Assembly (NCBI GenBank): GCA_948567375.1
Contig: OX419759.1
Span: forward strand, 44,792,593-44,856,592
Source of the DNA: Lunularia cruciata
Taxonomy: Eukaryota; Streptophyta; Marchantiopsida; Lunulariales; Lunulariaceae
Length of the DNA: 64,000 bases
Direction of reading: 5' to 3'
Positions 6,815-30,300 of the stretch are shown piece by piece. A program made the position numbers and the translations under genes. Below the pieces are notes generated by a model. It searched no databases. It worked only from the letters and a program-made list of their open reading frames with translations, and was not told where the DNA came from. Each line of letters begins with the position of its first letter. Within the stretch, counting starts at the first letter, position 1.

Positions 6815-6890
6815 TTGTACACAATAGGATTTGAACCCCCGATCTTTAGTTCCTAGACTAGTGCTCTAGCCAACTAATCCACCTTCATTT
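6815..6890 (-). other. tRNA-like segment (possible SINE head or tRNA pseudogene)
   Basis: On the minus strand, GGTTCAAATCC (complement of 6827-6837) is a good Pol III B box. About 30 nt upstream lies TTAGTTGGCTAGAGC (complement of 6863-6877), which resembles the D-arm/A box with a few bases missing. The acceptor, T and anticodon stems do not pair well, so this is not a working tRNA. Confidence 0.35.
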
Positions 6891-7429: not shown

Positions 7430-8250
7430 TCTAAGTTGGAATTTGATATAGGAGTTGATTCAATTGAGATTGCACTTGAAGTGTAGACTGACAAGCTGAG
7501 GAGCTTGCAAGAGTTCCAATGGAAGGCTAGAGAGAGCCTACACAAGGCATACACATGCATGAGATGGTTGATCAATTTCACTCAAGGAGTTATTGAGGCC
7601 CAAGCAATCCAATTCTGGTATGGGATCTTGGATAAGGAGTACGTGATGCTATATTATTACAAGCTACTTCACCTACTTTGTCAATGGTCTTTAGTTTGGC
7701 TGAGCATATTGAGCTCAACATGGTAGAAGAGAAAGTGGTGATATATAGATTTGGTAGTTTAGGGTTGACCTCATCCATAATTGTTACTTCTTCTAGAATG
7801 CACCATGCCATGTTGGCTTTAAAGGACAAAGTGGAAAGCCTAGATCCTATGGAGCAAGTGGAGTGCCTAGTATAGCTAGACCCTTACCTTCATTTTTAGA
7901 TCAGCAATAGCCAATGAGTAGTAATATTGCTTGTTAGACTTGTGGTGGACCTCACCACAAGAAAGAGTGCACTAAGGGCAATGGACACAATACTTCTAGT
8001 GCATCACAACCAACATAGAGGTAGTGTGACATTACCACAAATTTGGTCACATTAGTGACTGATGCTTTGATCTCCACCTAAAGTTAGAGAGTGGTAGGGT
8101 TGCTATGGTAGGTGGTAGAGGAGCTCCAAGTATGGTGTACAAGGTGGTAGAGGATTCACACTTGGTAGGGGTGCAATACCTACCTTTGCTTTTGATATAA
8201 CCATGGCTACTCGGATTGAGCAATTGGAGCAAAGATTGGCTAGCATGGCC
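7430..8250 (+). pseudogene. Family A copy 2: gag 5' part with zinc knuckles
   Basis: A gag-like stretch (AYTCMRWLINFTQGVIEAQAI near 7550-7610, FSLAEHIELNMVEEKVV near 7685-7740) is followed by two nucleic-acid-binding knuckles. The first reads TCGGPHHKKECTK near 7940-7980, its first Cys replaced by a stop. The second has HKFGHISD.CF near 8038-8075. Stops and frame changes are frequent. The frame is cut at 8250 by insertion of the family C element and resumes at 16,054, so one gag was split by a later insertion. Confidence 0.75.
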
Positions 8251-8929
8251 TGTAACACCCATTTGTGCATGTGTGTGGTATTGTGATATTTAGCTTGGTA
8301 TTACAAGTACTTAAGAGATATTATTTATATAGAGATAAAGGATGGTTCTATATTAGTCATGGTTAGCTAAAGTTAGTCATAGCTAAGATAGATGGGACCT
8401 TACTTTAGAGGAAGTAGAAAAGATGAGCACCACTATTTTGGATTTTAGTGTGTTGACTTGGTATTATTCCTAGGTGTTTGGCTTTGGGGAAAGAGTTGAG
8501 AACTCTTGGGCCCGCAAGCCTTTTTGTTTTGGATTCTTCTTTAGTCCAAGGATAGCCCATGTGAAGGAATCCTTGCTTTAGTGGTTGGGTCAAGATAAGG
8601 GGAATATGCCCATGTGAATGGATATTCCTTTCTACTTTTTGACTTTACTTGACTTTTAGTCTAGTAACTTGAGTTACTACGGTAATTAGTAACTTTGGTA
8701 CGTAACTATTTCACAAGTATATAAACAAGGAGTGAGGAGGTACTCATCATCCTTTCATTTGCAACTATCTCTCTCTCATTGAGTTCTCTAGTGAGCAATG
8801 TCTTGAGTCTTGGAGTGTTAGCCTTGGAGGAGTATGATGGAGTTGGGGTTCCTTGCCTTCTTAGTCCATGGTGCGCTACCATAATAGCCATCAGAGGTTC
8901 ATCCTGAGTGAGAGACAGGCCGGCTCACA
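8251..8929 (+). repeat. 5' LTR of family C element
   Basis: 679 bp, TGTAACACC...GGCTCACA. Repeated without visible change at 15,371-16,049 (offset 7,120). Diverged solo copies occur at 18,042-19,425 (two, reversed) and 48,396-49,849. It contains a TATA box and short pyrimidine-rich tracts. The short minus-strand reading frames inside it are not genes. Confidence 0.95.
8718..8725 (+). promoter_or_regulatory. TATA box in the family C 5' LTR
   Basis: TATATAAA in the middle-to-3' half of the LTR, where an LTR Pol II promoter is expected. The likely transcription start is about 25-35 bp downstream. The same box is at 15,838-15,845 in the 3' LTR. Confidence 0.6.
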
Positions 8930-8933
8930 TTTT

Positions 8934-8950
8934 TGGTTCCGTTGCCGGGA
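8934..8950 (+). promoter_or_regulatory. Primer-binding site of family C (tRNA-Asp type)
   Basis: TGGTTCCGTTGCCGGGA starts 4 nt after the LTR. It differs at few positions from the tRNA-Asp-complementary site TGGCGCCGTTGCCGGGG known from Athila/Tat-type plant elements. It would prime minus-strand DNA synthesis. Confidence 0.7.
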
Positions 8951-8970
8951 CCTCTCTAGAAGGCAAGATA

Positions 8971-9141
8971 ATGTTCCGCGTCCAATTCTACATTAGGCAG
9001 AAGGAGGCTATGAGAGCTCACTTGGAGAGAACATTAGGAGAGGAGAGGGCTGAACTTATGTTAGAGAACCAAGATCCATTTGTATACCCTGTAGTTCATT
9101 ATGATGTCTTTGAGGTGATTTTGTACATCTTGTACACATGA
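8971..9141 (+). CDS. Family C leader micro-ORF 1 (56 aa)
   Basis: A 56-residue frame starting MFRVQFYIRQKEAMR and ending YILYT, in the leader just after the primer-binding site. Its core (MR..L..TLG...E..LE...PFV.P.V.Y......YILY) matches a second micro-ORF at 10,266-10,430. That match makes chance less likely. No known domain is recognised. It could be the start of an ancestral gag or the first exon of a spliced accessory protein. Confidence 0.45.
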   Translation: MFRVQFYIRQKEAMRAHLERTLGEERAELMLENQDPFVYPVVHYDVFEVILYILYT

Positions 9142-9765
9142 GAGGAATTGGAGAGATTGTGTGAGGTGGATTGCAGATTTTGGGGATTAAGGTGATTTTG
9201 TGCAAAATCTCAAGTTTGAGATCTGGACTTGAGATTTCTACACATGATAGCTTGGGTTATCTTTCAGTTAGCACACTTGAAATTATTGAGAGAGCTTCTA
9301 TGCGCACTGGGCTAGAATTTTTGAAAGTTGATAGGGTAAAGTGCTCCCGCAACTGCATGCTCTCTGGAAAATTGTACAGAGTCTGCCATTTCTTCAATTT
9401 TTAGTGAATTGTCCTGAAAATTTCCAAGAAAATTCAGTGCATTGTATCCTACCTGGTGCCACAAAAATTAGAGAGAGATCATTTTTGCGCAGTGCGTTAT
9501 GAGTTTTTGAAGTGAGAGGGGTGGTTTTCAGACCAAATCTGAAATATGGGTGCTGAATAGAAAGGTTTCTAGGCCAAATGGCTCGATGAAAAGATCTAAA
9601 ATTTTGCAAGGAGAGACGCCCTAGAGTTGTGATCAAGTGTGGAAAATTTCAGAGGATTGTGACATATTCGTTGGGAGATTTGAGTGACATTGTGAGGAAG
9701 GGTCAATTCTGCAGAGTGGAGATCTCATGCATGAGAAGTTTGAGATCAACAAAAAGCATGTTTGA

Positions 9766-10263
9766 GTGTTTAGATTCATCTTTGGGAACATGGAGGGTCA
9801 TCAAGAGTGGAAATTGAGATTATGCAAGGTTCCCCAAGGATTTGAGGTGATTGTAGGGGTGGATTTGAGGAAAAGAGAGTTTACAATAGAATTTGAAGAG
9901 AGTGTTGAGAGGATCCAAAAACCTACACCACTTGGAGGAAAGAGTGAGTCTAAGTGCTTTCTATGTAGAGAGAAGGGACATAAGGCAAGTTCATGTCCAT
10001 TAACCTTTGAGAGCAAGAGATTGAGGGAAAGGAGAGGCTTACTTGACTTGGGTTTGCATGTTGGACCTTCTTCACCAAGATTGGGAGGGAGAAGATCTAA
10101 GACCAAGGAGTTGTGTGAGGTTTGTGGAGTTGAAGGACTTCCAAAAGGACATGAGTGTAGTGGAGTAAAAGCACTTTTGGAAACTTTGGTGAAGGATCTT
10201 GGAGAGAGTCTTAGTACAGCTACAGAAATACTACCACCTTCATCAGCTAGTTCTCAAGATTAG
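9766..10263 (+). CDS. Family C accessory ORF with zinc knuckle (165 aa)
   Basis: An open frame of 165 residues upstream of gag-pol. Near residues 65-80 it has KCFLCREKGHKASSCPL, a CX2CX4HX4C zinc knuckle of the retroviral nucleocapsid type. A second Cys/His cluster (LCEVCGVEGLPKGHEC) follows near residues 115-130. The N-terminal 60 residues resemble the end of an RNA-binding fold (KVPQGFEVIVGVDLRKREFTIEF), but I cannot assign it. It ends just before micro-ORF 2. The start could lie upstream if the leader is spliced. I infer a nucleic-acid-binding accessory protein of the element; true translation is unproven. Confidence 0.6.
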   Translation: MFRFIFGNMEGHQEWKLRLCKVPQGFEVIVGVDLRKREFTIEFEESVERIQKPTPLGGKSESKCFLCREKGHKASSCPLTFESKRLRERRGLLDLGLHVGPSSPRLGGRRSKTKELCEVCGVEGLPKGHECSGVKALLETLVKDLGESLSTATEILPPSSASSQD

Positions 10264-10265
10264 TG

Positions 10266-10430
10266 ATGGAGATAATCTTTCAACTTATGGATAAACTATC
10301 CATGAGAGTTAGATTAATATGCACTCTAGGATTTGATGTTGCTATAGAAATCTTGGAGCAACCTGAACCTTTTGTGTTCCCTAGAGTGGATTATTCTCAG
10401 ATGGTGTTAGTCATGTATATACTCTATTAG
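10266..10430 (+). CDS. Family C leader micro-ORF 2 (54 aa)
   Basis: A 54-residue frame, MEIIFQLMDKLSMRVRLI to YILY, starting 2 nt after the stop of the zinc-knuckle ORF. It aligns along about 43 residues with micro-ORF 1 at 8971-9141, with roughly 45 percent identity by eye. The two therefore look like ancient duplicates bracketing the zinc-knuckle ORF. Function unknown. Confidence 0.45.
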   Translation: MEIIFQLMDKLSMRVRLICTLGFDVAIEILEQPEPFVFPRVDYSQMVLVMYILY

Positions 10431-10440
10431 TAATAGAGTG

Positions 10441-10498
10441 AGAGAAAAAAAAAAAGAAAAAAAAATTTATGAGAAAAGAAAGATAGTGAGGGGTTAAG
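10441..10498 (+). other. A-rich leader before gag-pol start
   Basis: Purine tract (runs of A with single G) directly before the gag-pol ATG at 10,499. Purely compositional. Confidence 0.5.
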
Positions 10499-13400
10499 AT
10501 GGGGAAACTTCCGGTTTTCTTTGGCAAGGATGGAGAAGATGTGGAGGCCTTTGTGAGAGACTTCAAGAGAGCTTGCATAGGAAACAATGAGAGGAGGAAG
10601 AATGAGTGGGCCTCATTATTACCAGATTTCTTTGAGGATGCAGCACTTACATGGTATGAGTCAGAATACCAAAAGAGAGAGAGGAGAGAGAGGGAAGAGG
10701 AGTCTTGGGAGACTTTGACTTCAGCACTCATTGAGAACTTTCTTCCTGATGAGAGTTATGAGAGATTGATGAGTGAGGTTACATTTCTCAAGCAAGGAGA
10801 TGGAGAGAAAGTGAGGGTCTATGTGGAAAGAGTGGAAAAGTTGGAGTCCAGATTTCGCATAGTGTTGAGGAAGGGTGGGGATGATGTGGAGACTACAATG
10901 ATTGGCATAGGGGCCATGCTCACCAAGAATTTTGTGGGAGGATTGAGACCACAAATTAGAAGCAAGGTGAGATATGAGAAACCTTCTTCCAAGGTTGAAG
11001 CTATCAAGATCGCAATTCGTATGGAGGAGAGTTTGGAAGGGGATGAGAGTGATTTGGTGGTGAAGGAGGTTGTGCATCCTCCTCAAGGCTACAAGTATGG
11101 TGGAACTTCTGATACTTTGGTGACAAGGGTTGCACCACAAGTAGTAGTTGCTCCAATTCTTGCACCTCCACCAAAAGATCCACTCCAAACCATCACAGAA
11201 CAACTTGCGGATCTCAAGATCAATGTGGTGCAACTATGGGAGAAGAGAGAGGTGGATCAGAATGTAGGGAGAGGACCTAGGAGTTATGGAAACTATCCAT
11301 ATAGAGGAGGCCAACCAGCCAACAATTTCAATGAGAGAAATTGTTTTGGTTGTGGAGGAAGAGGCCATATCCAAAGGAATTGCCCAAATTCCACTTACCA
11401 TGGAGGAAGGGGTTATGAGGGAGCCAATAGAGGGAAAGAGGGAGGTAGTGAAACCCAAGTGGCTCCTAATCCCAACAAAGGTAAGGGGATAGCATCCATA
11501 GATGTGGTTGAGAGCAAGTATGAGAAGGGAGAGTGCTCAAACTCCAAGGGTCTTAATTTGGAGCTTTTGGCACAAGAGAAGAAGAGAGCTCGTTTTGCAG
11601 AGGATGTTCACTCTTCTCAAGGATTTACTTCAAGCAAGGATACTCCTATGTCTACTAGGAGCACTCGCACCTCAACACCATCAACAACAAAGACTCCAAG
11701 GAAGAAGTTGGGGATGGAGGACTTCTTGATCTCAAAGCAACAATGGAACTACAATGTGTTGGAGGATGTTGGTAGTCACAAGGCTAACATCACAGTGGGC
11801 CAATTAATTGCTTTGAACCCTACCTTGAGAAAGGAGCTTAGAGGTGGTTTGAGTTCTACAAGGAGCAAAAAGAAGAAGAAGGCAAAAGTTCCAGTATCAA
11901 TGGGGGTGGTGGATGCCAAGCCAGCACCATGGGAGGCTTGTGAATATGCCTCCAAGATTGATGTGAGAGTGAATGGTCACAACATCAAGGATGCATTGGT
12001 TGATGGAGGATCAGCAGTGAATGCCATGTCAGAAAGGTTGATGAAGTTGGGTATGATACCCTCAAGACCTTCAACATTTGTGGTGAGCATGGCAAACAAG
12101 CAACAAGTTCGACCAGTAGGGGTGATGGATAAGGTGGTAGTTTCAGTTATGGGAGTTCAAAATCTCATGACTTTCCAAGTCTTGAAGGATTCAAGCTATG
12201 ACTTACTTCTTGGGAGGCCATGGTTGAGAGCAGCACGCACAACTGATCGATGGCACAAAGGGTACTTGAGGATTGGGCCATCAAACCATAGAGTCACTGT
12301 TCCTGTGACTAACACCACCAACACTTCACATTCAGATACCCCATCTTCTAATTATTGGGAATCAGATTCTGAAGAAGGAGCTTCAGGTGTGGACACAAGC
12401 ATGGAAGAGGAGACTTCCACGGAGGAAGATGAATCTGAATCTGATTCAGATGTGTATCCCTTGTGTGCTATGGATTTTGCACCTAAGCCAGAGGTTTTGA
12501 AGGACCCAGATAAATCACCATTGACACTTGAGGAGGTAGAGAGAAGGTTATCTACCCTCAAGTATGGCCCAAATGTTACCAAGGAGGAGAAGGTGAGATT
12601 TGAGGAGATTTTCCGCAAGTTCATCCATGTGTTTGCTTTTAGTTACAAGGATTTGAAGGAAGTCACCTTGGAGGAGCACAAGACAGAGGTGGAGTCACAT
12701 GCAAGACCAATCCGCCAAAAGCAATGTCGCATTAGCCCACCAATATCTTTGGTTGTGAAGGAGGAGATTGATAAGCTCAAGGAGGCTGGATTTATCTTTG
12801 AGGTGGAGAATTCAGAATGGGTGTCTCCAATTGTCATTGTGAAGAAAAAGAATGGCAAGCTTCGGGTATGTGTGGATTACAAGAAGCTTAATGCTGTTAC
12901 CAAGAAGGACTACTACCCATTGCCATTCATTGATGAGATCTTGGAGGAGGTTGCAGGTCATGAGAGGTACAGTTTTGGAGATGGTTATAGTGGATATAAC
13001 CAAATAAAGATTGCACCAGAGCATCAACAACTCACCATATTCACCACACCTTGGGGAACTTACGCTTTCAAGGTCATGCCTTTTGGGCTTTGCAATGCTC
13101 CAGCCACATTCCAACGGTTCATGAACAAGGTATTTGAACCTTTCATTGGGAAATTTGTGAGAGATTTCATTGATGACTTTTGTGTCTATGGGAGCAAGGA
13201 GGAGCACTTTGAGCACCTAATCAAAGTCTTGCAACGCTTGGATGAGGCAAATGCATCACTCAACCCAGAGAAGTGCATTTTTGGATGTGAAGAAGGTCTA
13301 CTTTTGGGGCACATCATCTCCAAGGATGGAATAGCAGTTGATCCTGAGAAGGTGAGGAAAATCTCAGACCTTCCATTCCCTTCAAGCTTGACAAAGTTAC

Positions 13401-14203
13401 GCCAATTCTTGGGAATGGTTGGGTACTATAGGAGGTTCATCTTCTCATTTTCCAACAAGGCTTATGCATTGACCATCTACATGAAGAAGGGTGTAGATTA
13501 CATGGTGATTTTGGAAGACAAGGAGGCTCTCAAAGCTTTTGAGGAGCTCAAGCAATCCCTTGTTGTAGCTCCAATTCTTGCTAAACCTGATTGGAGTAAG
13601 CCTTTCATCCTCTACACTGATGCTTCTAATGTAGCTATAGGATGCACTCTTAGTCAATTAGACCAAGATGGGCATGATCATCCAATAGCTTATGCTAGTA
13701 GGCAGATGGTTTCAGCAGAGAAGAACTACTCTGTCACAGAGAGAGAAGGGTTGGCAGTGATCTTTGGTCTCAAGAAGTTTAGACACTACTTGATTGGAGG
13801 GAAAGCCACAATTGTCACGGATCACAAGGCTTTGAAGTACATCTTCAACAAGCCTAATGTTGAAGGGAGACTAGCAAGGTGGATGATACTCTTGTCTGAG
13901 TATGACTACACAATTGAGGATAGGCCAGGAAAGAAACATGCAAATGCTGATTTGTTATCTAGAGCCTATGATCATGATGGAGATGAGCCAGTAGATGATT
14001 CCTTCCCGGATGAGGAGCTCATGACAATCTCAGTCACTCAAGAGATTCCAATGGAGTACAAGGAGATTGTGGATTTTGTGACAAGAGGTAACTATCCAGA
14101 AGGGATGCATGCTAGGGAGAGGAAGGCCCTTGCAGCAAGATCTAGACCTTACACAATGGTGGAGGATATTCTTTTTCACCAAGGAGCAGATGGTCTACTT
14201 TGA
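10499..14203 (+). CDS. Family C gag-protease-RT-RNase H polyprotein (1,234 aa)
   Basis: A continuous 1,234-residue frame from the first ATG after the A-rich leader. Gag capsid-like region at residues 1-200 (FFEDAALTWYESE, FVGGLRPQIRSKV). Zinc knuckle CFGCGGRGHIQRNC at about 281-294. Aspartic protease with DALVDGGSAVNAMS, catalytic Asp about 502, and LLGRPWLR downstream. RT with WVSPIVIVKKKNGKLRVC, the fingers motif, and catalytic FIDD with Asp 892/893. The Phe form of this box is normal in Ty3/gypsy. RNase H with FILYTDASNVAIG (Asp 1041), TDHKALKYI and HANADLLSR. It ends at TGA 14,201-14,203. The integrase continues in the same frame, so the stop is either an inactivating CGA-to-TGA change (it falls in a CpG) or a readthrough point. 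Coding is otherwise intact. Confidence 0.95.
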   Translation: MGKLPVFFGKDGEDVEAFVRDFKRACIGNNERRKNEWASLLPDFFEDAALTWYESEYQKRERREREEESWETLTSALIENFLPDESYERLMSEVTFLKQGDGEKVRVYVERVEKLESRFRIVLRKGGDDVETTMIGIGAMLTKNFVGGLRPQIRSKVRYEKPSSKVEAIKIAIRMEESLEGDESDLVVKEVVHPPQGYKYGGTSDTLVTRVAPQVVVAPILAPPPKDPLQTITEQLADLKINVVQLWEKREVDQNVGRGPRSYGNYPYRGGQPANNFNERNCFGCGGRGHIQRNCPNSTYHGGRGYEGANRGKEGGSETQVAPNPNKGKGIASIDVVESKYEKGECSNSKGLNLELLAQEKKRARFAEDVHSSQGFTSSKDTPMSTRSTRTSTPSTTKTPRKKLGMEDFLISKQQWNYNVLEDVGSHKANITVGQLIALNPTLRKELRGGLSSTRSKKKKKAKVPVSMGVVDAKPAPWEACEYASKIDVRVNGHNIKDALVDGGSAVNAMSERLMKLGMIPSRPSTFVVSMANKQQVRPVGVMDKVVVSVMGVQNLMTFQVLKDSSYDLLLGRPWLRAARTTDRWHKGYLRIGPSNHRVTVPVTNTTNTSHSDTPSSNYWESDSEEGASGVDTSMEEETSTEEDESESDSDVYPLCAMDFAPKPEVLKDPDKSPLTLEEVERRLSTLKYGPNVTKEEKVRFEEIFRKFIHVFAFSYKDLKEVTLEEHKTEVESHARPIRQKQCRISPPISLVVKEEIDKLKEAGFIFEVENSEWVSPIVIVKKKNGKLRVCVDYKKLNAVTKKDYYPLPFIDEILEEVAGHERYSFGDGYSGYNQIKIAPEHQQLTIFTTPWGTYAFKVMPFGLCNAPATFQRFMNKVFEPFIGKFVRDFIDDFCVYGSKEEHFEHLIKVLQRLDEANASLNPEKCIFGCEEGLLLGHIISKDGIAVDPEKVRKISDLPFPSSLTKLRQFLGMVGYYRRFIFSFSNKAYALTIYMKKGVDYMVILEDKEALKAFEELKQSLVVAPILAKPDWSKPFILYTDASNVAIGCTLSQLDQDGHDHPIAYASRQMVSAEKNYSVTEREGLAVIFGLKKFRHYLIGGKATIVTDHKALKYIFNKPNVEGRLARWMILLSEYDYTIEDRPGKKHANADLLSRAYDHDGDEPVDDSFPDEELMTISVTQEIPMEYKEIVDFVTRGNYPEGMHARERKALAARSRPYTMVEDILFHQGADGLL

Positions 14204-15322
14204 AGAGCAGTGGGTAAGGAAGAGTCTATCCTACTTATAAAGGAGTTTCATGAAGGTTTAGTATGTGGAGGACACTTTGCAGGAAAGGTGACTGCTTTCA
14301 AGATTCTAGATGCAGGTTACCATTGGAGAGGGATTTTCAAGGATTGTCTTGATTATTGCAAAACTTGTCATGTTTGTCAAGCTTTTGCTAGAAAGTCTAC
14401 ATCCACTCCACCACTTGGATCAATTCCATTGCTAGGACCTTTTGAGAAGTGGGGAATTGATTTTGTAGGACCTCTCAATAGAACCCCAAGGAACAATCGG
14501 TACATTGTGGTAGTTACTGATTACCTTACCAAGTGGGTTGAGGCTAGACCATTGAGGGACAAGAATGAAGATGAAGTGGGTAGATTTCTTTATGAACGCA
14601 TTATCACTAGGTTTGGATGCCCTTTGGAGTTGGTTTCTGATAGAGGAGGAGAGTTTACAGGAAGCATTACTACAGCCATGCTACGACATTTCTCTATCAC
14701 ACATAGAGTAACTACATCCTATAAGCCAAATTCCAATGGCTTGGCAGAGAGAACCAATCAGACCTTGTGCATGATGTTGGCCAAAGATGCAGAAATGGAG
14801 GGGGCTAAACATCATTGGGACAAGAGGATTCATGCAGTTTTGTGGGAGTATAGGACAACCATGAAGACTTCCACTGGATATTCTCCATTCCAATTGGTGT
14901 ATGGTATTGAGTCTACCTTACCTATTCACTTTGATCTTCCTACCTTCCAAAGCATTCATAGGAGATTGAAGAAAGCACAAGGAAGTGATGCAGGGAAGTC
15001 AAGGAAGGATCAACTCATGGAGTTGGAAGAGGCAAGAGCAGTTGCTATGGTTCGAGTGGAGCAAGCCCAAAGGAAACAAAAGGAGAGCTATGACAAGAGG
15101 CAAGGCAAGAAGAAGGTGGAGCCTTTCAAAGAAGGTGATTGGGTAATGTTGTTTGATTCCATTCGATTCAAGAGAGTGCAAAAGAAGTTTTTGCCTAAGT
15201 ACTTTGGACCTTTCATAGTAGAGAAGGTGTGGGGAAATTACACCTATGATCTCAAGGAGTTGGGAGGAAGACACTTTGATAGGATTAACCATGATAAGTT
15301 GAAGATGTACCATAGAAGGTAG
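14204..15322 (+). CDS. Family C integrase
   Basis: Continues in the gag-pol frame immediately after the TGA. No ATG sits at its start, so separate initiation is doubtful. Counting from the GTG at 14,210: HHCC zinc-binding domain (His 14, His 22, Cys 53, Cys 56; HEGLVCGGHF and CKTCHVC). Catalytic core WGIDFVGPL (Asp 84), LVSDRGGEF (Asp 144) and NGLAERTNQ (Glu 180), which keeps the D,D(35)E spacing. GPY/F-like C-terminus LPKYFGPFIVEKV near residue 325. It inserts the element DNA into the host genome. No chromodomain or PHD finger follows: the frame ends at KMYHRR. Confidence 0.93.
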   Translation, partial: RAVGKEESILLIKEFHEGLVCGGHFAGKVTAFKILDAGYHWRGIFKDCLDYCKTCHVCQAFARKSTSTPPLGSIPLLGPFEKWGIDFVGPLNRTPRNNRYIVVVTDYLTKWVEARPLRDKNEDEVGRFLYERIITRFGCPLELVSDRGGEFTGSITTAMLRHFSITHRVTTSYKPNSNGLAERTNQTLCMMLAKDAEMEGAKHHWDKRIHAVLWEYRTTMKTSTGYSPFQLVYGIESTLPIHFDLPTFQSIHRRLKKAQGSDAGKSRKDQLMELEEARAVAMVRVEQAQRKQKESYDKRQGKKKVEPFKEGDWVMLFDSIRFKRVQKKFLPKYFGPFIVEKVWGNYTYDLKELGGRHFDRINHDKLKMYHRR

Positions 15323-15356
15323 AGAGACCTTCACTTTGAGGACAAAGTGAAAACTT

Positions 15357-15370
15357 AGTCCGGGGGTAAA
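15357..15370 (+). promoter_or_regulatory. Polypurine tract of family C
   Basis: A G-rich run (GTCCGGGGGTAAA) directly abuts the 3' LTR. It is the expected primer site for plus-strand DNA synthesis. Confidence 0.6.
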
Positions 15371-16049
15371 TGTAACACCCATTTGTGCATGTGTGTGGTA
15401 TTGTGATATTTAGCTTGGTATTACAAGTACTTAAGAGATATTATTTATATAGAGATAAAGGATGGTTCTATATTAGTCATGGTTAGCTAAAGTTAGTCAT
15501 AGCTAAGATAGATGGGACCTTACTTTAGAGGAAGTAGAAAAGATGAGCACCACTATTTTGGATTTTAGTGTGTTGACTTGGTATTATTCCTAGGTGTTTG
15601 GCTTTGGGGAAAGAGTTGAGAACTCTTGGGCCCGCAAGCCTTTTTGTTTTGGATTCTTCTTTAGTCCAAGGATAGCCCATGTGAAGGAATCCTTGCTTTA
15701 GTGGTTGGGTCAAGATAAGGGGAATATGCCCATGTGAATGGATATTCCTTTCTACTTTTTGACTTTACTTGACTTTTAGTCTAGTAACTTGAGTTACTAC
15801 GGTAATTAGTAACTTTGGTACGTAACTATTTCACAAGTATATAAACAAGGAGTGAGGAGGTACTCATCATCCTTTCATTTGCAACTATCTCTCTCTCATT
15901 GAGTTCTCTAGTGAGCAATGTCTTGAGTCTTGGAGTGTTAGCCTTGGAGGAGTATGATGGAGTTGGGGTTCCTTGCCTTCTTAGTCCATGGTGCGCTACC
16001 ATAATAGCCATCAGAGGTTCATCCTGAGTGAGAGACAGGCCGGCTCACA
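15371..16049 (+). repeat. 3' LTR of family C element
   Basis: 679 bp, read as identical to 8251-8929. Followed by GGCC, the 4-bp target duplication, and then by the resumed gag of family A copy 2. Confidence 0.95.
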
Positions 16050-16053
16050 GGCC

Positions 16054-17160
16054 ATACTCCAAGGAGATCAGATTTAGGTGTTGAGGCTTCCACCTCTTAT
16101 GTTGGTGATAGAGACATCTTGGACTTTATATGAGCGACTGATGTACATCCCGAAAAACTTGGTGATGCAGATGGGACCGGCAGCCCTGCTTTGAGAGAAT
16201 GTGTGGAGTAGCACAAGTAGATGCATGTGCCATAATGACTAAGAGTGCAGTACGTGGTCTAGAGCCTAGAGGAGCATTAGTGGAGTTAGACCCATAGAGA
16301 GGAGAGGCTGATAGAGATATTAGACTCCCTTAGTCTTTCACACTCTATGAGGCACTATAGAGGACATCCATGGCTCCTAGACATCCTAGTGTAGGGGTGG
16401 TAGGTGGGGATGGAGTGCATGATAGACTAGATGTTAGTCAACTACTTTCTACTACAAAAATTGAGTCAAGCATAATGTTGGGGGTGGCTTAATTGATTAT
16501 GCGCTTCCCTTTGTTCTTAGCCAAAGACATGTTTACATTAAGAGTTAATCTAGCTTTAGTGTCCTGCTTGGCTACCACACTTTGTGAGAGTAGGGATGAA
16601 GTGGTTCTTACTTCTAAAGCAAATATGGTTGATAATGGATCTAACTTGGTTAAGGAGCATGGGATCCATTTAACAACCAATGGTTTATGGCAAGTAGCAA
16701 TAGCTAGATTGGAGAAGTTACCAACTAGACTTGCCTTTGAGCAAGCGAGGTTAACACTTGGAATTGTCCTATTGGATAACCAAAGGGAGATTTTTGGTTT
16801 GGTAGGACCTTCAAGGAAGGTTTATACACCATAAAGAGTCTTATTAGACTCTGGTGTGCAACTCCTTATGTTGGAGAAGGCTACAATTGTTGGTTTGGAG
16901 GTACAAAAGATCAATGTGGAGAGGTGTCCATTTTAGATGTAGACATCTTTAGGGGTGGTTTTACATAATATCAAATATGGAGAGCTTATTATCTAGATTC
17001 CTACCCATTCATCTGATTGATAGCTTTGTGATGAGAGCTCAAGCCATTGTGATAGTAGCAAAGTCATATGATGTGCTGGTTGGTGGAGCAATGTTATATC
17101 TCACAGGTTTCAATATTGACTATTGGGAGGAGATAGCCTCTTATAGACCAAGTTGGTAGT
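16054..17160 (+). pseudogene. Family A copy 2: gag 3' part, protease and linker
   Basis: Resumes the gag frame interrupted at 8250 (AILQGDQI, then LPPLMLVIETSWTLYERLMYIP near 16,085-16,150). A longer open stretch at 16,360-16,835 leads into VLLDSGVQLLMLEKA near 16,845-16,885, a retropepsin active site with Asp-Ser-Gly. It is followed by SYDVLVGGAMLYLTGFNIDY near 17,068-17,130. Several TAG/TGA stops occur. The segment feeds directly into the methyltransferase-like region, which shows that both belong to one element. Confidence 0.8.
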
Positions 17161-17299
17161 CAAGTGAAGGAAAAATATGTTGCCTACCAGTACGCTTTAG
17201 TAGTGGTAATCTTGGCTCACTACAATCAAGGACTATGGTATCAATTTAAACTTTTAGTGATTCCATTACTTGGATGATTTATTGGCGAGGAACACCCAT

Positions 17300-18041
17300 G
17301 CAGAGGATACTCTAGTACTAAAGGAGATCACTTGGATTTGGAGTACAAGTGAGATCTTTCTATCTACCTTGGATGTTCATTGTGGAGTTTTGAGGAGGTA
17401 TTGCAATAACATGTAGATTAGTTGGTGCAATAAGCTTGGAGTACCACCAGGAGACTAGTGTGAGGATGAGCCTCCAAAGTCTATCATGTTATCACCTTTG
17501 GATACCACACCCATTGCTTGGTAGTATCTAGTAAAGGGAGTATGTCTATTGTTGTTGTTTGGTGGGATTAGCATAGGATAAGTTGCAATATTATAGGCAA
17601 GTATAGAGGTACTTGTATGTGGAGAGAGATGAGATTGTTATGCAAGTCTCTCTACATCATTGGGCCTATTGGTATCCTAAGTTATTATTGATGTCAATAG
17701 TTAGGGGTTACCAAAAGACCTATCAATAAACATTACTGGTTGGGAGTCCAGGACTTTGAGAGACATGGTCCCATTCATATAGTGATTTCTAGATGGCCAT
17801 GTTAGGGACATACCGGTGCTGGCTGAGATTAGGGTCTCTAGGCTTCCCATTCTGGTGTGTTTTAGGAGATGTTATATATACTATGACATCTCTAGGTTCA
17901 TCAATATGTTTTTCTAGCCTACATTTTGGAGAACATCCTTTTGATTGGATGATTCTTGCACCCAAGTGGTGGTGAGTACACATGGTAGGTACATTCTTGG
18001 ATGGGACCTATCATGTTGTTGGATGCAGCTAGAGTGGGATA
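17300..18041 (+). pseudogene. Family A copy 2: C5-cytosine DNA methyltransferase-like domain, N-terminal part
   Basis: Cytosine-5 methyltransferase signatures in the right order, spread over three frames by indels. Motif I (SAM binding): CLLLLFGGISIG at 17,543-17,578. Motif II-like acidic end: YVERDE at 17,616-17,633. Motif IV: IVISRWPC then stop then GH at 17,782-17,811, with the Cys as the catalytic nucleophile; the Gln expected after PC is now TAG. HSGVF near 17,845. Motif VI: AYILENILLIG near 17,917-17,949, with the ENV-type Glu. Motif VIII start: LLDAARVG at 18,016-18,039. It lies between the protease and the RT of family A. The open frame is lost, so the enzyme is dead here. The rest of the domain resumes at 19,426. 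I know retrotransposon-borne cytosine methyltransferases only from a few algae and dinoflagellates. Confidence 0.82.
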
Positions 18042-19425
18042 TGTGAGCTATGAGCCGGCTTGTCTCTCACTCAAGATGAACCTTTGATGGTTTTTATGGT
18101 AGCGCACCTTGGACTAAGAAGGCAAGGAACCCCAACTCCATCATACTCCTCCAAGGCTAACACTCCAAGACTCAAGACATTGCTCACTAGAGAATTCAAT
18201 GAGAGAGAGATAGTTGCAAATGAAATGATGATGAGTACCTCCTCACCCCTTGTTTATATACTTGTGAATTAGTTATGTACCAAAGTTACTAATTACCGTA
18301 GTAACTCAAGTTACTAGGCTAAAAGTCAAGTAAAGTCAAAAAGTAGAAAGGAATCCATTCACATGGGCATATTACACTAGCATGTGATCCTATCTTGACC
18401 CAACCACTAAGTCAAGGATTGCTTTACATGGGCTATCCTTGGACTATAGAAGAATCCAAAACAAAAAAGGCTTGCAGGCCCAAGAGTTCTCAACTCTTTC
18501 CTCAAAGCCAAACACTTAGGAATAATACCAAGTCAACACACTAGAAACCAAAATAATGGTGCTCATCTTTTCCACCTCCTCTAAAGTAAGGTCCCTTCTA
18601 TCTTAGCTATGACTAACTTTAGCTAATCATGACTAATGTAGAACCATCCTTTATCTCTATATAAATAATATCTCTCAAGTACTTGTAATGCCAAGCTAAA
18701 TATCACAATACCACACACATGCACAAATGGGTGTTATAGAGCAAGCTTATCTCTCACTCAAGATGAACCTCTGATAGCTATTATGGTCATGCACCATGGA
18801 CTAAGAAGGCAAAGAACCCCAATTCCATTATACTCCTCCAAGGTTAACACTCCAAGACTCAAACCATTGCTCACTAGAGAACTTAATTAGAGAGAGAGAG
18901 AGTTGCAAATGAAAAGATAATGTGTACTTCCTCACATCTAGTTTATATACTTGTGAAATAATCATGCACCAAAGTTACTAATTACTAGAGTAACTCAAAT
19001 GACTAGGCTAAAACTCAAAAAAATTCTAAATTCTAAAAGAATATCCATACTCATAAGAATATTCTCTTAAGCATGTGGTCTTATCTTGACCCAACCACTA
19101 AGTCAAGGATTCCTTCACATGGGCTATCCTAGTACTATAGAAGAATCTAAAACAAAAAGACTTGTGAGTCCAAGAGTTCTCAACTCTTTCCTCAAAGCCA
19201 AACACATAATAATACCAAGTCAATACATTAGAATCCAAAATAGTGGTGCTCATCTTTTCCAATTTCTCTAGAGTAAGGTCCCCTCTATTTTAGCTATGAC
19301 TAACTTTAGCTAATCATGACTAATATAGAACTATCCTTTATCTCTATATAAACAATATCTCTCAAGTACTTATAATATCAAACTAAATATCATAAAAGCA
19401 CATACATGCACAAATGGGTGTTGTA
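18042..19425 (-). repeat. Two family C solo LTRs, one inserted in the end of the other
   Basis: Both are reverse-orientation relatives of the 679-bp family C LTR. The inner one spans 18,049-18,738 (TATGAGCC to GTTATA) and is flanked by GAGC on both sides (18,045-18,048 and 18,739-18,742). The outer one is split: its first 7 bp (TGTGAGC) lie at 18,042-18,048 and it continues at 18,739-19,425 (ends GTTGTA). The outer copy is flanked by GATA/GATT (18,038-18,041 and 19,426-19,429), a 4-bp duplication with one change. The outer LTR sits inside the methyltransferase region of family A. Confidence 0.88.
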
Positions 19426-19870
19426 GATTGTAAGCTCATTATCTTCATCTTTGGTAGACAAACCTCTTACCCAGAGAGGTTCTACAACATGCTTATGATG
19501 GGGTTCAGCAACTAGATCACCTTACTATCGATGATATTTTTGATGTTGGACGTTAGTATCAAATAGTGGTAGCGGCTAATAGGTCACCTATGGAAATGGT
19601 AAACCTTTTTGGTCAGCCTAGAGTTGCTTTACCCACACTTATGAGTTTCCTAAGCTCCCATGCTTTTTGAGAAGGAGGTCTTGGACTTGTTTGGGACTCA
19701 TAGTTACAACAATTGGTGGAGCCTAACATCAATGAGAGGGAGTGGGCAATGAGTTTCCATAATGATATTACCATTGTTACAATAGTGTCAAAGGCATACA
19801 AGCATCAAGTGTTAGATCAAGCTATGGACCTAAATTGCTTGATCTAGATTGTGAACCTTGGCTTGCTAGA
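19426..19870 (+). pseudogene. Family A copy 2: methyltransferase-like domain, C-terminal part
   Basis: Continues the domain after the nested LTRs. TNLLPREVLQHAYDGVQQ near 19,480-19,535 would follow motif VIII. Next come VVAANRSPMEMVNL near 19,566-19,610 and QQLVEPNINEREWAMSF near 19,707-19,757, where the ERE..MSF core resembles motif IX/X. Then VLDQAMDLNCLI near 19,809-19,845, where DQAMDLN takes the place of the GN..-type motif X. Several stops (for example TAG 19,701-19,703). On its own this part is weaker evidence than the first half; its place and order make the case. Confidence 0.65.
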
Positions 19871-21060
19871 GCAATGTAGGATGTGCTTGATAGGTATCAT
19901 CACTTGAACACTTGTGAGCTTTGTGCCTATCAAGATGATTCAGGCACATGTTGGGAGTGATGGACCAAGTGGGTAGGGTACTCTTGGGACACCGAATGGC
20001 TACTAGTGAGAGTGGTCTATTTGGGGTCCATCTAGGTGAGCATGGTCTACTTGGGTTACACCCTTGGTCTACTTAGGATGTAGTTAGAGGACATATGGAG
20101 CTTGTAGCCAAATTAGAGGGAGTTTTCCACATTGAGATTGGGCACTCTAGTGGTTGGGGGCATGATAATACTACTCCCAAGGGCCCAATGTAATAGCAAA
20201 TCAATACATCTTTCACTCCTACATCAGTTACAGAGGATACTTGGGAGCTAGATCTTGGACCCAAGCTTACAAGAGGAGAAAGATGGAGAGTTTGGAGGTT
20301 CTTGAGGAGCTACACAATGTGTTTTTCTTTCAATATGAAAGATTTGTGTGCTCTAAAAGGACTTGGTATTAAAATTGAGCTTACTAATAATACACCAAGT
20401 TTTTGACGTCCCTATAGATATAGTGACATGGAGAGAATATTGATTCAGAGCCAAAGTAAAGACCTTTTTGAGGCTGATTTGGTGGAGATTTCACATAAAG
20501 TATATGAATCAACTACAATGATGTCAACCAAGGAGTATATGCATAAAAACTACATTGATAGGCAGATGTGTGGAGATTACCATCTTATAAACCAATAGAC
20601 TGGTGTTGATTGGTATGCCATGCCTACATTGGAGGAGATCGTTGATGCAATTGGGCATGCAAAGGTCGTTAGTACTTTGGATCTTTAAGTAAGATATCAT
20701 CAATTGCCAATCAAGGAGGAGGATAAGGGAGGAAGATAACTCTAAGACAAGATTTTGGACTATTGATCCTCACGGCAAGGATGTATAATATCAATGGAGG
20801 TTCTTACTATTTTGATTAAAGAATGTTCCTACTAAGTTGTGGGTTATGGATAGTATCCTAGTAGGATTGGATTTTTCTTGGTGCTATATTGATCACATTT
20901 TGGTCTATAGCACTATTATAGAGGAGCATGAGAGACATTTGTTGGAGGTTTTTGAGAGATTGAGATCTCTTGGACCCAAATTATATCTTGTGAAGTGTAG
21001 ATTCTTCCATTAGCAAGTTGATTCTATCTACATCACTATTCACCACTCCAAGTCTATGAA
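19871..21060 (+). pseudogene. Family A copy 2: reverse transcriptase
   Basis: Decayed RT. Upstream, MKDLCALKGLGIKIEL near 20,337-20,385 is the usual pre-RT segment. The palm is seen as CGDYHLIN, YAMPTLEEIVDAIGHAKVV and STLDL near 20,570-20,690, then YHQLPIKEEDK, and a catalytic-box remnant near 20,880-20,900 (CYIDHILVY, with the second Asp as His). Part of it ends near 21,010 (CRFFH). After this most of RNase H is missing and a palindromic stretch joins to the region past RNase H. 19,871-20,280 holds only weakly conserved linker. Confidence 0.78.
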
Positions 21061-21720
21061 TTATGAGACTTGACACCAATTGTGCAAATTTGCACAATTG
21101 GTGCCAAGAACTCAATTACATCTTGTGAATTGGTGCCAAGAACTCATGTCCTAGCCAATAGGATCAGATTGGAGCATATTTGCATGGTGAGACATATGAA
21201 GAGATGGTGCTAGGTTGGCATGCATCTAAATTTTTATGTATATTTTTTGAGGCTTTGGTGATATCTCTCTCAACATATTCAAGAGGAGTTATTGAGGTCA
21301 CAAATCTAGAAATAGAGATATTGGTACAGTCCAGTAAGACATTCATGATGATGTCTTAGTGATGGATTACCTTTACACTAGTGTTGTGGCTGGCACAATT
21401 GGTGCCAAGGAGAGAGACCGTGCTCTTTAGCAAGCCAAGCAGTTTAGATTGGAAGGCATGCACCTTCTTTTTGTATGGGAGGATGGTAGAGTGAAAGTAG
21501 TACCACTTCCATCTTAGAGATTGTAGTTGGTGCATCATGCTCATGAGGAGCCAAGACATTTTGGAATAAATCATACATATAGCTACTCCACAATCATTAT
21601 TGGTAATGGGGTATGCAAACCAATGTACAACAATTTTGCAGATGTGTGGTTTGTGAATGAGTTAGAGCATCATTTAATGCTCCTATGCCATAGTTACACC
21701 CATTAATTTATTAGGACCAA
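21061..21720 (+). pseudogene. Family A copy 2: post-RNase H linker and start of integrase
   Basis: 21,140-21,720 aligns at nucleotide level with 520-1,110 of copy 1 (shared: GATGGTGC.AGGTTGGCATGC, GAGTTATTGAGGTCACA, AAGGAGAGAGACCGTGCTCT). It covers the linker and the integrase zinc region (AHEEPRHFGI near 21,540-21,570). It ends at about 21,720, short of the catalytic core, so the integrase core and the PHD end are absent here. Confidence 0.8.
21074..21103. repeat. Perfect 30-bp palindrome
   Basis: CACCAATTGTGCAAA followed by its exact reverse complement. It sits at the joint where RNase H has been lost from family A copy 2. A 16-bp direct repeat (TTGGTGCCAAGAACTC) occurs at 21,099-21,114 and again near 21,132-21,147. 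Confidence 0.85.
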
Positions 21721-26463: not shown

Positions 26464-27394
26464 GAATTCCATTCGATTTGCTTTGATCTATAGGATTTCA
26501 GGAAACACGAGAGAGAGGGAAAACGGTAATTTCACTTCGAATTCACAGAGTACAAAGTGCGAGCGCATAAGCGGACGTTTGTTCGAAGAATCTGAGATAT
26601 AAGTAGGAGGTTGAAGTGCAGTGTGGGCCAACTGAGACCTGATCGCTAATTTGTTTTACTGCCCAGCGAGAGCACTTATAGTTTTGAGATCTGTAGATTC
26701 TGTACACTTGTATGTACTTTGCGCACTAGAAGATTTATGTATGTGGAAATCGATAGCCTTGCGGCGGAAAGCTGTTAGACAGTTGAGTTATAATCCACTG
26801 TGCGTTCGTTTTTCCGGTGTTTGTCGGGTTGAGAGTTGAAAAGTTGTCGAAGAAAGTGAAGCAGTGTCGTGGGAGTGCAGTCCAAAGAATTCTGCATTGG
26901 CATATAGCGAAACGCTCGGCATCTTGATATGAAGTGAGATCTTTATCCTTGTGGAACCTTTAAAATAAGCTGGCAGCCACACGAGAAAGTGTGGGACATG
27001 GATTTGTAGTTGTCTGTACCAGTGTCAGGCTTTTGTTGGCTTTGAGCGGTTACGGTCTAGCTTCTTGCTGTTTGTCCGTGGAAGAACCTGTGCAGAACTT
27101 GTCAGGCAGCGTACATTGCAAAGAGAATTTCAAGGGATATAACTAGTGTGTACCTGGAGATGCGTTTATTCCATTAAAGATTTTAAGGAAAACTAAATAG
27201 ATATCAAAGATCTTACGTGTTTTGTGCGTCATTTTGGACTGTGTAAGACGGAGGGCACCGTTGACTCGAGCTCCTGTTCCCACAGCAGAGCCAGATGCTT
27301 CTAGTTTGAAATCTGGTAGCTGTATAATCAACACGGTTCGGAAGTTTATATCATGCAGAGAGCTGAGATCTTAATGCGTATTGTTATCGTGCAG
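26464..27394 (+). other. Presumed 5' UTR, first exon and first intron of the PARP gene
   Basis: No long reading frame. The first recognised coding exon opens at an acceptor (TATCGTGCAG, AG at 27,393-27,394) in a phase that needs two bases from an upstream exon. The start codon must therefore lie in an upstream exon that I could not locate. Confidence 0.4.
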
Positions 27395-30300
27395 GGACTC
27401 AACGAGGGTAGAGACTAGGGGAAAGGCCCGCAATGATCACCATAATGGTGCTAAGCAGGAGGATCATAAAGTGGGAGCGAAGAGGTTGAAGAAAGCGAGT
27501 GGTGAGGAAGTTACCAAGCGGTCCAAGAACTCAGAAGAGAAGGATCCTGAGAATGGAGCTGAGCATGAAGAGGGTGACGAGAAGAAACCGAAGGAGGAGA
27601 CAAATGAACAAAACCAAGAAGAGATGGACATGGACTCGGAAGACGAGAGCCGCGAGGCTACAGCGGAAGACCTGGCTGACTTGGTCAAAGAGCTGAAGAG
27701 GAACGCAACAGTGGACGAGCTGGTCTCTTTCCTTGAGGAGAACAATTTGGATGGTTCGGGTACAGAAGAGCAAATTTTCGAGCGGAGGTACATACCACAT
27801 GGTTTGTTTGGCGTTGATAGAGGCGCTAAATTGCTACACGCCACAGTCGGTGTGTGTTGTAGATAAACAAGTGTAACAGAGAGCAGCAGCAGCCATGTAT
27901 TTGAGTAGATATTCCGATCTAGGGTCATGAGAGATCACCTACTATAAACCCCCTGCCTTCTTGCTCGATTTTGCAGTGCGGACGCGATGATGTTTGGACC
28001 ATGTGAGAACTGTCCAGTTTGCGGAGGTGCGCTAGAATTTGCAGGTCAGATGTATCACTGCAGAGGATACATATCTGACTGGTCCAGGTGCAATTACAGC
28101 GTCAAGGACCATGCTCGTAAGAGCGAGAAATGCAAGGTTCCCAAGAGTCTGGACAATGAATTTGTCAAGAAGGTAACCATGAACCTGGAGTATCCGATAC
28201 CGAGATTCTGGAATTACAATCTTGAAATATCTGTGTTCGTGGACGTGATCTTAGATTGTTTCCTATGAGTGGTTAGTCTGATTATGGTGTTCATGAACGT
28301 ATGGATGTGTGACTATGGTGATCATGGATGTATGGATGGGAACAGTGGGTGGAATCACACGAACCTGTGCGGAGAAATCTTGTTCCCAAGGACAAGTTTC
28401 TTTCTGGACTGACCTTGGTATTGAATGGTCGAATGGCTCATTCGCAGGTAACTCTCAAATTCCCTCCAGTGAATTGCAATGTCCCAAGTATGAAGGTGCA
28501 CAGGTTTAAGCAAGTAGTAGGTTTCTTTCGGTCTAGAGTTAATTAGGAACTGATGAGATGCATCGACTTCAATCCGTTCGACAGTGTTGTGAATGGAATA
28601 CTAGACGCAACTCTAAGATGCTTCTCTTGATTAAAAATTTCAGGGAGAAATGAGGAAGGCCATTGAGAAGTATGGTGGAACTCTTGCGGGTGCAGTGAAG
28701 CCAGGTACTTGATGGTGGTGAAAACTCTCGGACGATTAACACTATTCTAAGAAGTTGAAATGAGAATGTCGTCGGTACTACCCAGTTAGTGGGTCAGTAG
28801 TGTAAATAAGGACGTTGAAAATGGCATTGCATTTGCAGGTGTGTCCGCTGTTTTGTGCAACGAACGTGACATTTCAGGCGGAGGTTCATCGAAGATGTCT
28901 GACGCTGTGTAAGTCAATCGAGCTCTTTTGATAGCTTGTCGCGTCTTCGGTTGTAGATGCTTTTGTGGTTCTTGCCGCACTGGAGGTTGTTAGCTCAGCG
29001 ACTAAACTGTCTTATGTGGTCTTCAGAGACATGGGCATTCCCATCTGCAATGAGAAATGGCTTGAAGACTCCATCGAGAAGTGTCAAGCATTACCTCTAC
29101 AGGCTTACAACATGTCCGGAGAGTTGATTCTCACAGGTGATGAAATCCCTTGGGATCAGCGGGCTCCTGAGGATGAAGCTGCGGTAGCACTAATGGCTGA
29201 GGTACTACACTCTCATCGAAGTTGATGATTTAGAATACAATGTGATGCAGACAAACTTTTGGGGCAACAAGTACGATCTTACATGTTCCTAAGTTCCGTC
29301 CATTTGTTGACTGTAGCTCAAGTTGGTCGGGAAGAGGGGAGTGTATGCCGATACAAATCTAGAGGAGCAAGGAGGAAAGATCTATGAGGCAGATGATATA
29401 ATCTACAACTGCGCCTTCTCTATGTGTGATATTACAGTCAACTTTAACCAGTGAGTATGAAGATCAATCTTCACTGTTTCACATGCCGTAAGGCCTTTCC
29501 GAGGTGTGTCCATGATCTTCTAACTTAAAACACTTTGCGTGTGTTCTGCAAAGGTACGCAATTCTGCAGCTTATTGAGGTACCCGCGAGCAACACGGACG
29601 AGGATGGTGGGAAGGAACCAAAGATTTATTTGTACTTGAAAGAAGGTCGTGTTGGGGATAAGAGGAGTACCCAGGAACGTCTGGACGTTCAAGAGTCGGC
29701 CAAAGTTGCAATTGAGGAGTTTGTGAAGCTCTTTGAAGATATTTGCGGGAACCCGTTCGAGGCTTGGGAACGCGAGAAATTCATCGAGAAGAAATGCGGG
29801 AAATACGTTCCATTGGATATGGTAAAGAGCAGAACCTGATGTCGTTCTGACTCGGCGTTTTTCTCATATTTTAAGGGATACTCATGAGTTACGTGTTCTT
29901 GAGGGTTCTGTTCAGCATAACTGTGAGTTTTTTGGTGAGAATTGACAGGCACCCGGTATTGATGCTCGAGCTGGAGGTCTGGGAGTTCGACAGTTGGGAA
30001 TTGCAGCAAGTCACTGTCAGTTGGACTCACGTATCGTAGAGTTTCTGAAGATATTGTTCAGTCAGTCTGTGTACAGGTAATCTCTTTCCAATTGTTACAA
30101 GATTGCAAGTGCGACTCGTTGAAGAAATTGTCCATATGTTAGTTTATGTACCTTAACTTGGCACTTTTTGTTGTTGCGATGTAGATTTGCCCTTACTGAG
30201 ATGGGTCTTGATGCCCCCGATCTGCCTACTGGGATCCTGACCGATTGGCATATTGAGTTCTGTAAGTTATTTTCTAAGCTACCATGGTCATCATAATGCC

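Follow-up and report, generated by a model that had tools for sequence, protein, structure and literature searches.

Retrotransposons that carry a DNA methyltransferase (DNMT) of the DNMT3 type have been reported in streptophytes and dinoflagellates, where the domain lies within long terminal repeat (LTR) Copia and DIRS elements (PMC12344493). In the charophyte Klebsormidium nitens, de Mendoza et al. 2018 describe gypsy elements with the domain, termed KnitGypsy-Dnmt3 (PMC5890265), and, according to the text of that paper, the methylome of K. nitens resembled those of land plants despite these elements. The same text presents SymbioDIRS-Dnmt3, from Symbiodinium, as an independent capture whose domain methylates CG in yeast. 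Here we describe a gypsy-type family from Lunularia cruciata, encountered in a stretch of 64,000 nucleotides of contig OX419759.1 (hereafter the window, taken at its full length), in which a DNMT3-type domain sits between protease and reverse transcriptase (RT) and is followed by a conserved UAG stop. We consider it likely that this family captured a DNMT3-type de novo methyltransferase and that Gag-protease-DNMT, put in excess by readthrough of the stop, methylates new complementary DNA (cDNA) or target DNA.

The domain in the window is a decayed C5-cytosine methyltransferase of the DNMT3 type, and it occupies 17,495-18,040 (motifs I-VIII) and 19,434-19,873 (end of VIII to X) on the plus strand, on either side of nested repeats at 18,042-19,425. 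A profile of 66 related DNMT domains, run against the six-frame translation of the window, gave four abutting blocks in three frames (2, 3, 1 and 3): 17,495-17,611 (profile 2-40, E 1.5e-4), 17,586-17,717 (profile 35-81, E 9.7e-4), 17,743-18,039 (profile 91-188, E 6.9e-22) and 19,431-19,871 (profile 190-336, E 2e-46). These blocks contain 3, 1, 9 and 5 in-frame stops, 18 in total, and the profile step from 188 to 190 coincides with the nested repeats. The best other match in the window had E 3.6, and the best in the reversed window E 0.72. At the DNA level, the domain of L013, a copy of the family found elsewhere in the genome, matches the first part at 77.5% and the second at 81.8%, leaving 5 of its own bases unmatched between the two. 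A previous sequence-only reading had listed the motif strings LFGGISIG, YVERDE, WPC.GH, AYILENI, DAARVG and DQAMDLN and had put the codon of the nucleophile cysteine at 17,800-17,802; all of the strings, and the cysteine codon, are where it placed them, but the strings are spread over three frames with stops between. Seven short pieces of the region gave no Pfam match, and a Protein Data Bank (PDB) search with one short piece gave no match.

A one-frame read of the second half of the domain, with X at the stops, returned a single match among 53 candidates, the protein P0001 (E 1.1e-18). This protein, a DNMT fragment free of breaks, aligns to the window to the left (17,794-18,057, 45%) and to the right (19,434-19,802, 55%) of the nested repeats. 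It led to 189 relatives, of which the best 120 were listed, and P0006, a longer relative, led to 76 of polyprotein length. The named hosts among the matches listed are Marchantia polymorpha, M. paleacea, Riccia sorocarpa, Calypogeia fissa, Sphagnum troendelagicum, S. tenellum and S. fallax; no row named Klebsormidium is among them. The Marchantia polyprotein P0121 is colinear with 7,295-8,256, 16,190-17,605, 17,607-18,039 and 19,434-19,961, and another, P0129, continues the alignment into RT at 20,242-21,022. Because these polyproteins run colinearly across both nested inserts, a single element, copy 2 (about 5,429-21,705), spans them: a broken gypsy-type element with the DNMT between its protease and RT. 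The attribution of gag and protease on the left and RT on the right to one element, made in the sequence-only reading, is thereby borne out.

The family is abundant in the genome. In the 565.8-Mb assembly (74 contigs), P0006 gave at least 111 scored matches (13,360 candidates), each over at least residues 3-366 of 368 and at 72-74% identity, and at least 66 of the 111 have no stop within the domain. With PF00145 we obtained at least 123 scored matches (2,161 candidates), the first eight of which are four host genes and four element copies. Twenty copies (L009-L028) were read, picked among the PF00145 matches for long open frames; they are therefore a sample of well-preserved, DNMT-bearing copies, neither of typical copies nor of DNMT-less ones. 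All 20 show the order protease, DNMT, RT, RNase H, integrase and PHD finger, some with frameshifts and stops. Apart from the DNMT and the PHD finger this is the domain order of Ty3/gypsy elements, and Pfam recognizes RVT_1, RT_RNaseH and rve in relatives and in copy 1, a second copy in the window. The integrase is of the rve type in 20/20 copies and in copy 1 (PF00665), unlike that of DIRS elements, a separate search for a tyrosine recombinase not having been made. ORF1, the first open reading frame, reaches 1,428 amino acids and ends about 106 codons past the DNMT, and ORF2, of up to 1,037 amino acids, continues in the same frame. Collectively, the profile blocks, the colinear polyproteins and the 20 copies confirm a gypsy-type element with a C5-cytosine methyltransferase between protease and RT. 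On the terms for refutation that the sequence-only reading had set, these 20 copies did not refute it, the domain being in place in each.

Besides the 20 copies, the PHD finger is found in 10 of the 11 relatives with at least 250 amino acids beyond the integrase. Chromoviruses are gypsy elements with a chromodomain on the integrase; they too have a chromatin reader at the integrase end, a chromodomain there and a PHD finger here. No paper on PHD-bearing gypsy integrases was found in the open-licence literature searched.

Protease lies ahead of the DNMT in one protein in 41 of 196 relatives. Two positions of the domain exist: between protease and RT (position A; Marchantia, Riccia, S. fallax and the window), and between RNase H and integrase (position B), with RNase H before the DNMT in 13 of the 196 proteins. 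We guess, from the letter make-up of the proteins, that position B is held by algae. Seven position B proteins (P0165, P0167, P0179, P0182, P0188, P0189 and P0190) run RT-RNase H-DNMT-integrase, with a PHD finger after the integrase in three; three of the four without it end at most 174 amino acids after the integrase.

By sequence and predicted structure, the domain is a member of the DNMT3 family, which refines the class of C5-cytosine methyltransferase that the sequence-only reading had correctly named. A profile built from 26 members matched DNMT3A best (E 1.4e-16), then DNMT3B, DRM (2.4e-11), DNMT2 (9e-8) and HaeIII (3.1e-5), and the 57 matches listed include no chain by the name of DNMT1, CMT or DNMT5. 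An AlphaFold model of P0006 made from 70 sequences has a predicted local distance difference test score (pLDDT) of 92.6; an earlier model from 26 sequences was poor (pLDDT 52) and was left unused. All 50 PDB entries listed for the good model are DNMT3 structures, DNMT3A at E 3.3e-19 with a root-mean-square deviation (rmsd) of 3.2 and a template modelling score (TM) of 0.83. The motifs follow the unrearranged DNMT3 order, I, IV (PC), VI (ENV), VIII (HRxR) and X, on a predicted DNMT3 fold. The DRM order, with motif X before I, is absent, the profile blocks running from 2 to 336 in sequence, whereas the host DRM (L002) is rearranged. Catalytic residues were scored in 66 full-length domains of the 196 relatives: the catalytic cysteine is kept in 64/64 ungapped relatives, and the E of ENV and the R of HR are each present in 64/66 domains. 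Four host methyltransferase genes were classified by motif order and without a family search: L001 and L004 are intron-split DNMT3 genes, L002 is a DRM and L003 is CMT-like.

Next we examined the descent of the domain in a tree of 35 rows, comprising 31 retrotransposon DNMTs (26 taken from the 66 relatives and 5 from the 19 copies of this genome), two host DNMT3, the host DRM and human DNMT3A, without viral or bacterial rows. The 31 split from the four others at 100/100, three of the four outside rows being less than half filled. Since the retrotransposon DNMTs thus stand apart from the host DNMT3, the tree argues against their recent derivation from today's host gene, at the resolution of four outside rows and no dating. 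With these few outside rows it also speaks for a single capture over two. Distances between DNMT domains track those between the RTs (Mantel r 0.81, 0 of 5000, 18 proteins), in line with co-inheritance.

The pattern of changes among copies indicates that the domain is under purifying selection. The ratio of nonsynonymous to synonymous differences (pN/pS), taken from 15-20 of the 20 copies per domain, pooled over related pairs and uncorrected for CpG decay, is 0.38 for the DNMT (19 copies; codon bootstrap 0.25-0.59), and no bootstrap of 2000 reached 1. Pooled values for the other domains are 0.30 (protease), 0.21 (RT), 0.26 (RNase H), 0.45 (integrase, upper bound 0.96) and 0.19 (PHD finger). 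Shared changes in the DNMT have a pN/pS of 0.34 versus 0.81 for singletons, which suggests constraint while the element moves and near-neutral decay after landing. From these sequence comparisons, a DNMT3 was most likely captured once, long ago, and kept under selection.

The Gag-protease reading frame includes the DNMT and closes with a conserved UAG, beyond which RT and integrase follow. In 18/20 copies the DNMT frame runs to TAG, then CAG, then CCA or CTA, and the same frame is open on both sides of the stop. TAG-CAR-YYA stands at this site in 20/20 copies, including the two with an earlier frame shift, and just 3 other such 9-mers occur on the same strand of the 200 kb read. UAG-CAR-YYA is given as the type I readthrough consensus in PMC3542737. 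In copy 2, an ungapped stretch aligned to L012 places the decayed counterpart of this site at 20,191-20,199 (plus strand), between the DNMT and RT frames. Furthermore, of 32 relatives that have a protease and match the DNMT over about 300 amino acids or more, 25 end 40-140 amino acids past this domain and show no RT match (P0133, among these, continues into RNase H and integrase), three have RT in the same protein, and four end at other distances, one of these with an RT start. These ends suit a widespread but not universal stop, and contig ends may also cut proteins.

The terminal repeats depart from the plain gypsy design. The right end reads B-A-B in 18/20 copies and in copy 1 (A about 448 bp, B about 107 bp), and A is found on the left in 7 of the 10 copies whose left flank was fetched. 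The element begins with A1 (TG..) and ends with B2 (..CA), and all six of these ten copies that could be scored are flanked by a 4-bp target duplication. The two A repeats of a copy are 97-99% identical in five of the seven copies and 89% in one; for the seventh, the left piece contained just 68 bp of A (98.5%), the other part being at 97.4%. Two equal LTRs at both ends, as in Ty3/gypsy elements (Metaviridae), were not found, which is why we class the family as gypsy-type with split repeats and not as an ordinary LTR gypsy element. The gypsy assignment made in the sequence-only reading is correct, with the refinements that split repeats take the place of two plain LTRs and that a PHD finger and a conserved UAG after the DNMT are present. 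A perfect 10-bp palindrome is seen at the B1/A2 junction (near 8,970 in L009-L028) in 12/20 copies, as might result from the joining of element ends. Searches with A1 against viral contigs and genome contigs, and with P0001 against viral contigs, gave pattern matches only and no relatives.

Copy 1, which is cut by the left edge of the window, belongs to the same family as copy 2 and matches L013 at 92-97%. On the plus strand it reads RNase H (3-470; PF17919 E 6.9e-27, 94.6% to L013 over 81-470), the zinc-binding and core domains of the integrase (726-1,398; PF17921 1.5e-11 and PF00665 3.8e-11, 97.0% over 895-1,398) and the integrase C-terminal region with the PHD finger (1,822-2,163; PF00628 E 1.1e-8, 35.5 bits against a cut-off of 24). 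These are followed by B1 (2,334-2,438; 96.2% to B of L013 and 97% to B2), the LTR-like A2 (2,443-2,895; 92.5% to A of L013) and B2, the right end of the element (2,896-3,002; 95.3% to B of L013).

Of the described systems, KnitGypsy-Dnmt3 is the closest in kind, and by analogy our family would work like it, as a DNMT3 joined to a gypsy element. Compared by description, both have gypsy domains and an unrearranged Dnmt3-like domain in a polyprotein, and both have DIRS-like repeats (PMC5890265). The KnitGypsy domain is described there as a divergent clade apart from the host Dnmt3 and under purifying selection (Ka/Ks <0.2), trends that recur here. The passages of that paper on the element call its reading frame Pol and name no PHD finger or readthrough, whereas here the DNMT is in the Gag-protease frame before the UAG; the host there is K. 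nitens, and the hosts here are liverworts, peat mosses and the genome of the window. SymbioDIRS-Dnmt3 likewise places a Dnmt3 inside a retrotransposon with A-coding-B-A-B repeats, and differs in having a tyrosine recombinase where this family has an rve-type integrase (PMC5890265). Type I readthrough in tobamoviruses (PMC3542737) uses the same UAG-CAR-YYA consensus at a same-frame stop before the polymerase, a likeness known here from sequence; unlike in tobamoviruses, the UAG here divides Gag-protease-DNMT from RT-integrase-PHD. Liverwort or peat moss relatives, a position before the integrase, a PHD finger, and UAG-CAR-YYA with a DNMT in the Gag-protease frame were not found in the open-licence literature searched.

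Enzyme activity, readthrough, packaging and benefit are all steps that we infer from these data. Ribosomes would read through UAG-CAR-YYA at a few percent, so that Gag-protease-DNMT would far outnumber the longer product that also has RT, integrase and PHD finger. The DNMT would be carried with Gag in the particle and would add de novo methylation to the new cDNA or to the DNA flanking the insertion, and the PHD finger on the integrase may read histone tails and so steer insertion. The likeliest gain would be that a copy arrives already methylated, resembling resident silenced chromatin or shielded from editing, with little harm to the host. A more far-reaching version is possible, though we hold it with considerable doubt: one ancient DNMT3 capture, apparently common to algal, liverwort and moss elements, with a tobamovirus-like stop that puts excess Gag-protease-DNMT in the particle, DNA methylated before insertion, a PHD finger that picks the chromatin, and split repeats that imply replication unlike that of ordinary LTR elements.

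Several points weigh against our interpretation. According to the text of PMC5890265, the KnitGypsy domain gave no methylation in yeast, a result that its authors call inconclusive. The copies read were chosen for long open frames, and their pN/pS is pooled and uncorrected as stated above; the DNMT is under weaker constraint than RT (0.38 versus 0.21), and the singleton value of 0.81 reflects post-insertion decay. The readthrough proposed for the UAG is a motif match, and the 20/20 are related copies rather than independent trials; the 3′ structure was folded for six copies (-25.5 to -27.3 kcal/mol) without a shuffle control. The trees disagree on which domain position is older: position B is one clade among A forms in a quick DNMT tree (97) and in an RT tree (100/99), whereas in the 35-row tree it is the A rows that form one clade (97/99), with the B rows unresolved outside it. 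Finally, the copies are poor in CpG (observed/expected 0.42-0.47) and not in CAG/CTG (1.30-1.51), and in copy 2 both ratios are low (0.08-0.10 and 0.26-0.38), a pattern that fits silencing by the host as well as self-methylation. All 12 in-frame stops in 19 DNMT domains are of the transition class expected from methylated-cytosine decay.

Under a different reading, which we consider somewhat improbable, the DNMT acts on the host: it would be imported and spread methylation over the genome or target chromatin, altering sites of landing or expression under the guidance of the PHD finger. The PHD finger on the integrase part of 20/20 copies suits this, as do the host-wide effects that de Mendoza et al. 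discuss for Symbiodinium (PMC5890265), but the K. nitens methylome is described in the same paper as land-plant-like despite such elements, and the DNMT stands before the UAG and the PHD finger after it, so that most DNMT molecules would lack a PHD finger if readthrough is rare. It is unlikely that the UAG is no readthrough signal and simply ends ORF1, RT and integrase being obtained by splicing, internal initiation or a separate RNA. An open frame continuing on both sides in 18/20 copies and UAG-CAR-YYA in 20/20 argue otherwise, the chance of CARYYA after a stop being about 1 in 512 under uniform base frequencies. The Marchantia models P0129, P0131 and P0137, seen as proteins only, do join DNMT and RT, which an annotated intron could explain.

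More unlikely still is that the domain is a passenger or works without DNA methylation, as a nucleic-acid binder, an RNA methylase or a structural part of the particle. Such a role would agree with the KnitGypsy domain, for which the text of PMC5890265 reports no activity in yeast, and with the lower constraint on the DNMT than on RT, but it sits poorly with a catalytic cysteine kept in every ungapped relative, with ENV and HRxR mostly kept and with a pN/pS below 1 throughout the bootstraps. It is very unlikely that the domain derives from a C5 methylase of bacteria, phages or giant viruses and not from a eukaryotic DNMT3. Viral C5 methylases share the fold, and the best viral structure matches the P0006 model at E 2.7e-17, but it superposes at rmsd 16.2, and Mimivirus (E 3.7e-14) at rmsd 5.5 and TM 0.69, both worse than DNMT3A; bacterial methylase profile E-values trail DNMT3A by about 11 orders. 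That host DNA, or a fragment of a host DNMT gene, came by chance to lie between unrelated retroelement pieces is extremely improbable: although the region is a mosaic of nested elements, the same order recurs in all 20 copies elsewhere in the genome, protease precedes the DNMT in single proteins of the relatives, and the host DNMT3 genes are intron-split and fall outside the retrotransposon DNMTs in the tree.

Copy 2 is dead, twice interrupted and 3′-truncated, and L013 DNA matches its parts at 73-85%. On the plus strand, we found its left terminal repeat A1 at 5,429-5,801 (72.6%), a gag-like region at 7,302-8,249, left of the nested element (78-79% to ORF1 of L013, colinear with P0121), the rest of ORF1 before the DNMT, including the aspartic protease, at 16,062-17,479 (78-85% in three stretches), a decayed RT at 20,557-21,021 (82.5%) and the start of the integrase at 21,504-21,705 (84.0%), within which the family matches stop. 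The RT piece 20,816-21,010 matches PF00078 at E 3.8e-6 (27.2 bits, below the cut-off of 29.6), and the RNase H of copy 2 gave no L013 DNA match. The start of ORF1 is assigned to gag by position, by zinc-knuckle motifs in P0121 and by weak Pfam matches, Retrotrans_gag in P0121 and P0133 being under the cut-off at E 0.054 and 0.019. Between A1 and the gag-like region, at 6,307-6,749, a 92-bp unit is repeated, in a tandem run of three and once more beyond a gap. A search for strings resembling a primer-binding site left of copy 2 found none.

Both inserts are foreign to the DNMT element. The first is a nested gypsy element at 8,251-16,049 (plus strand), with LTRs 100% identical, GGCC on both sides and no DNMT match in its main open reading frame; its 679-bp LTRs make it young, yet its inside is already CpG-poor (observed/expected just 0.14). 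The second, inside the DNMT at 18,042-19,425 (minus strand), consists of two adjacent LTR-like copies related to those LTRs at 85-93% identity. Elsewhere in the window, related gypsy-like fragments (76.5%) with RT matches on the minus strand lie at 3,005-5,398, between copies 1 and 2, and at 39,598-41,934. A PARP-like host gene at 27,375-29,836 combines a PADR1 zinc ribbon (PF08063, 2.4e-14) with weak matches to PADR1_N and WGR, and the stretch of 22-36 kb around it has a CpG observed/expected ratio of 0.68, versus 0.07-0.19 in the other measured stretches, copy 1 excepted (0.44). The last 2 kb (62,001-64,000) are very AT-rich (GC 0.218). Rfam gave nothing at the gathering score.

DNA methylation is a main weapon of the host against retrotransposons, and a retrotransposon whose own de novo methyltransferase is maintained by selection would invert this relation, raising the question of why a parasite would make the very mark that hosts use to silence parasites. 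In the literature searched, gypsy elements of this sort had been described from a single charophyte alga. Because the family is abundant in a 566-Mb genome and Marchantia polymorpha, a model species for which genetics and methylomes are available, has relatives in its protein annotation, it can be tested whether the element methylates its own cDNA and whether this benefits the element or the host. The position of the domain in the Gag frame, together with the readthrough-type stop, offers a measurable hypothesis on dosage and packaging. Further retrotransposon-borne DNMTs may be hidden among plant proteins annotated as hypothetical or as DNA methylases.

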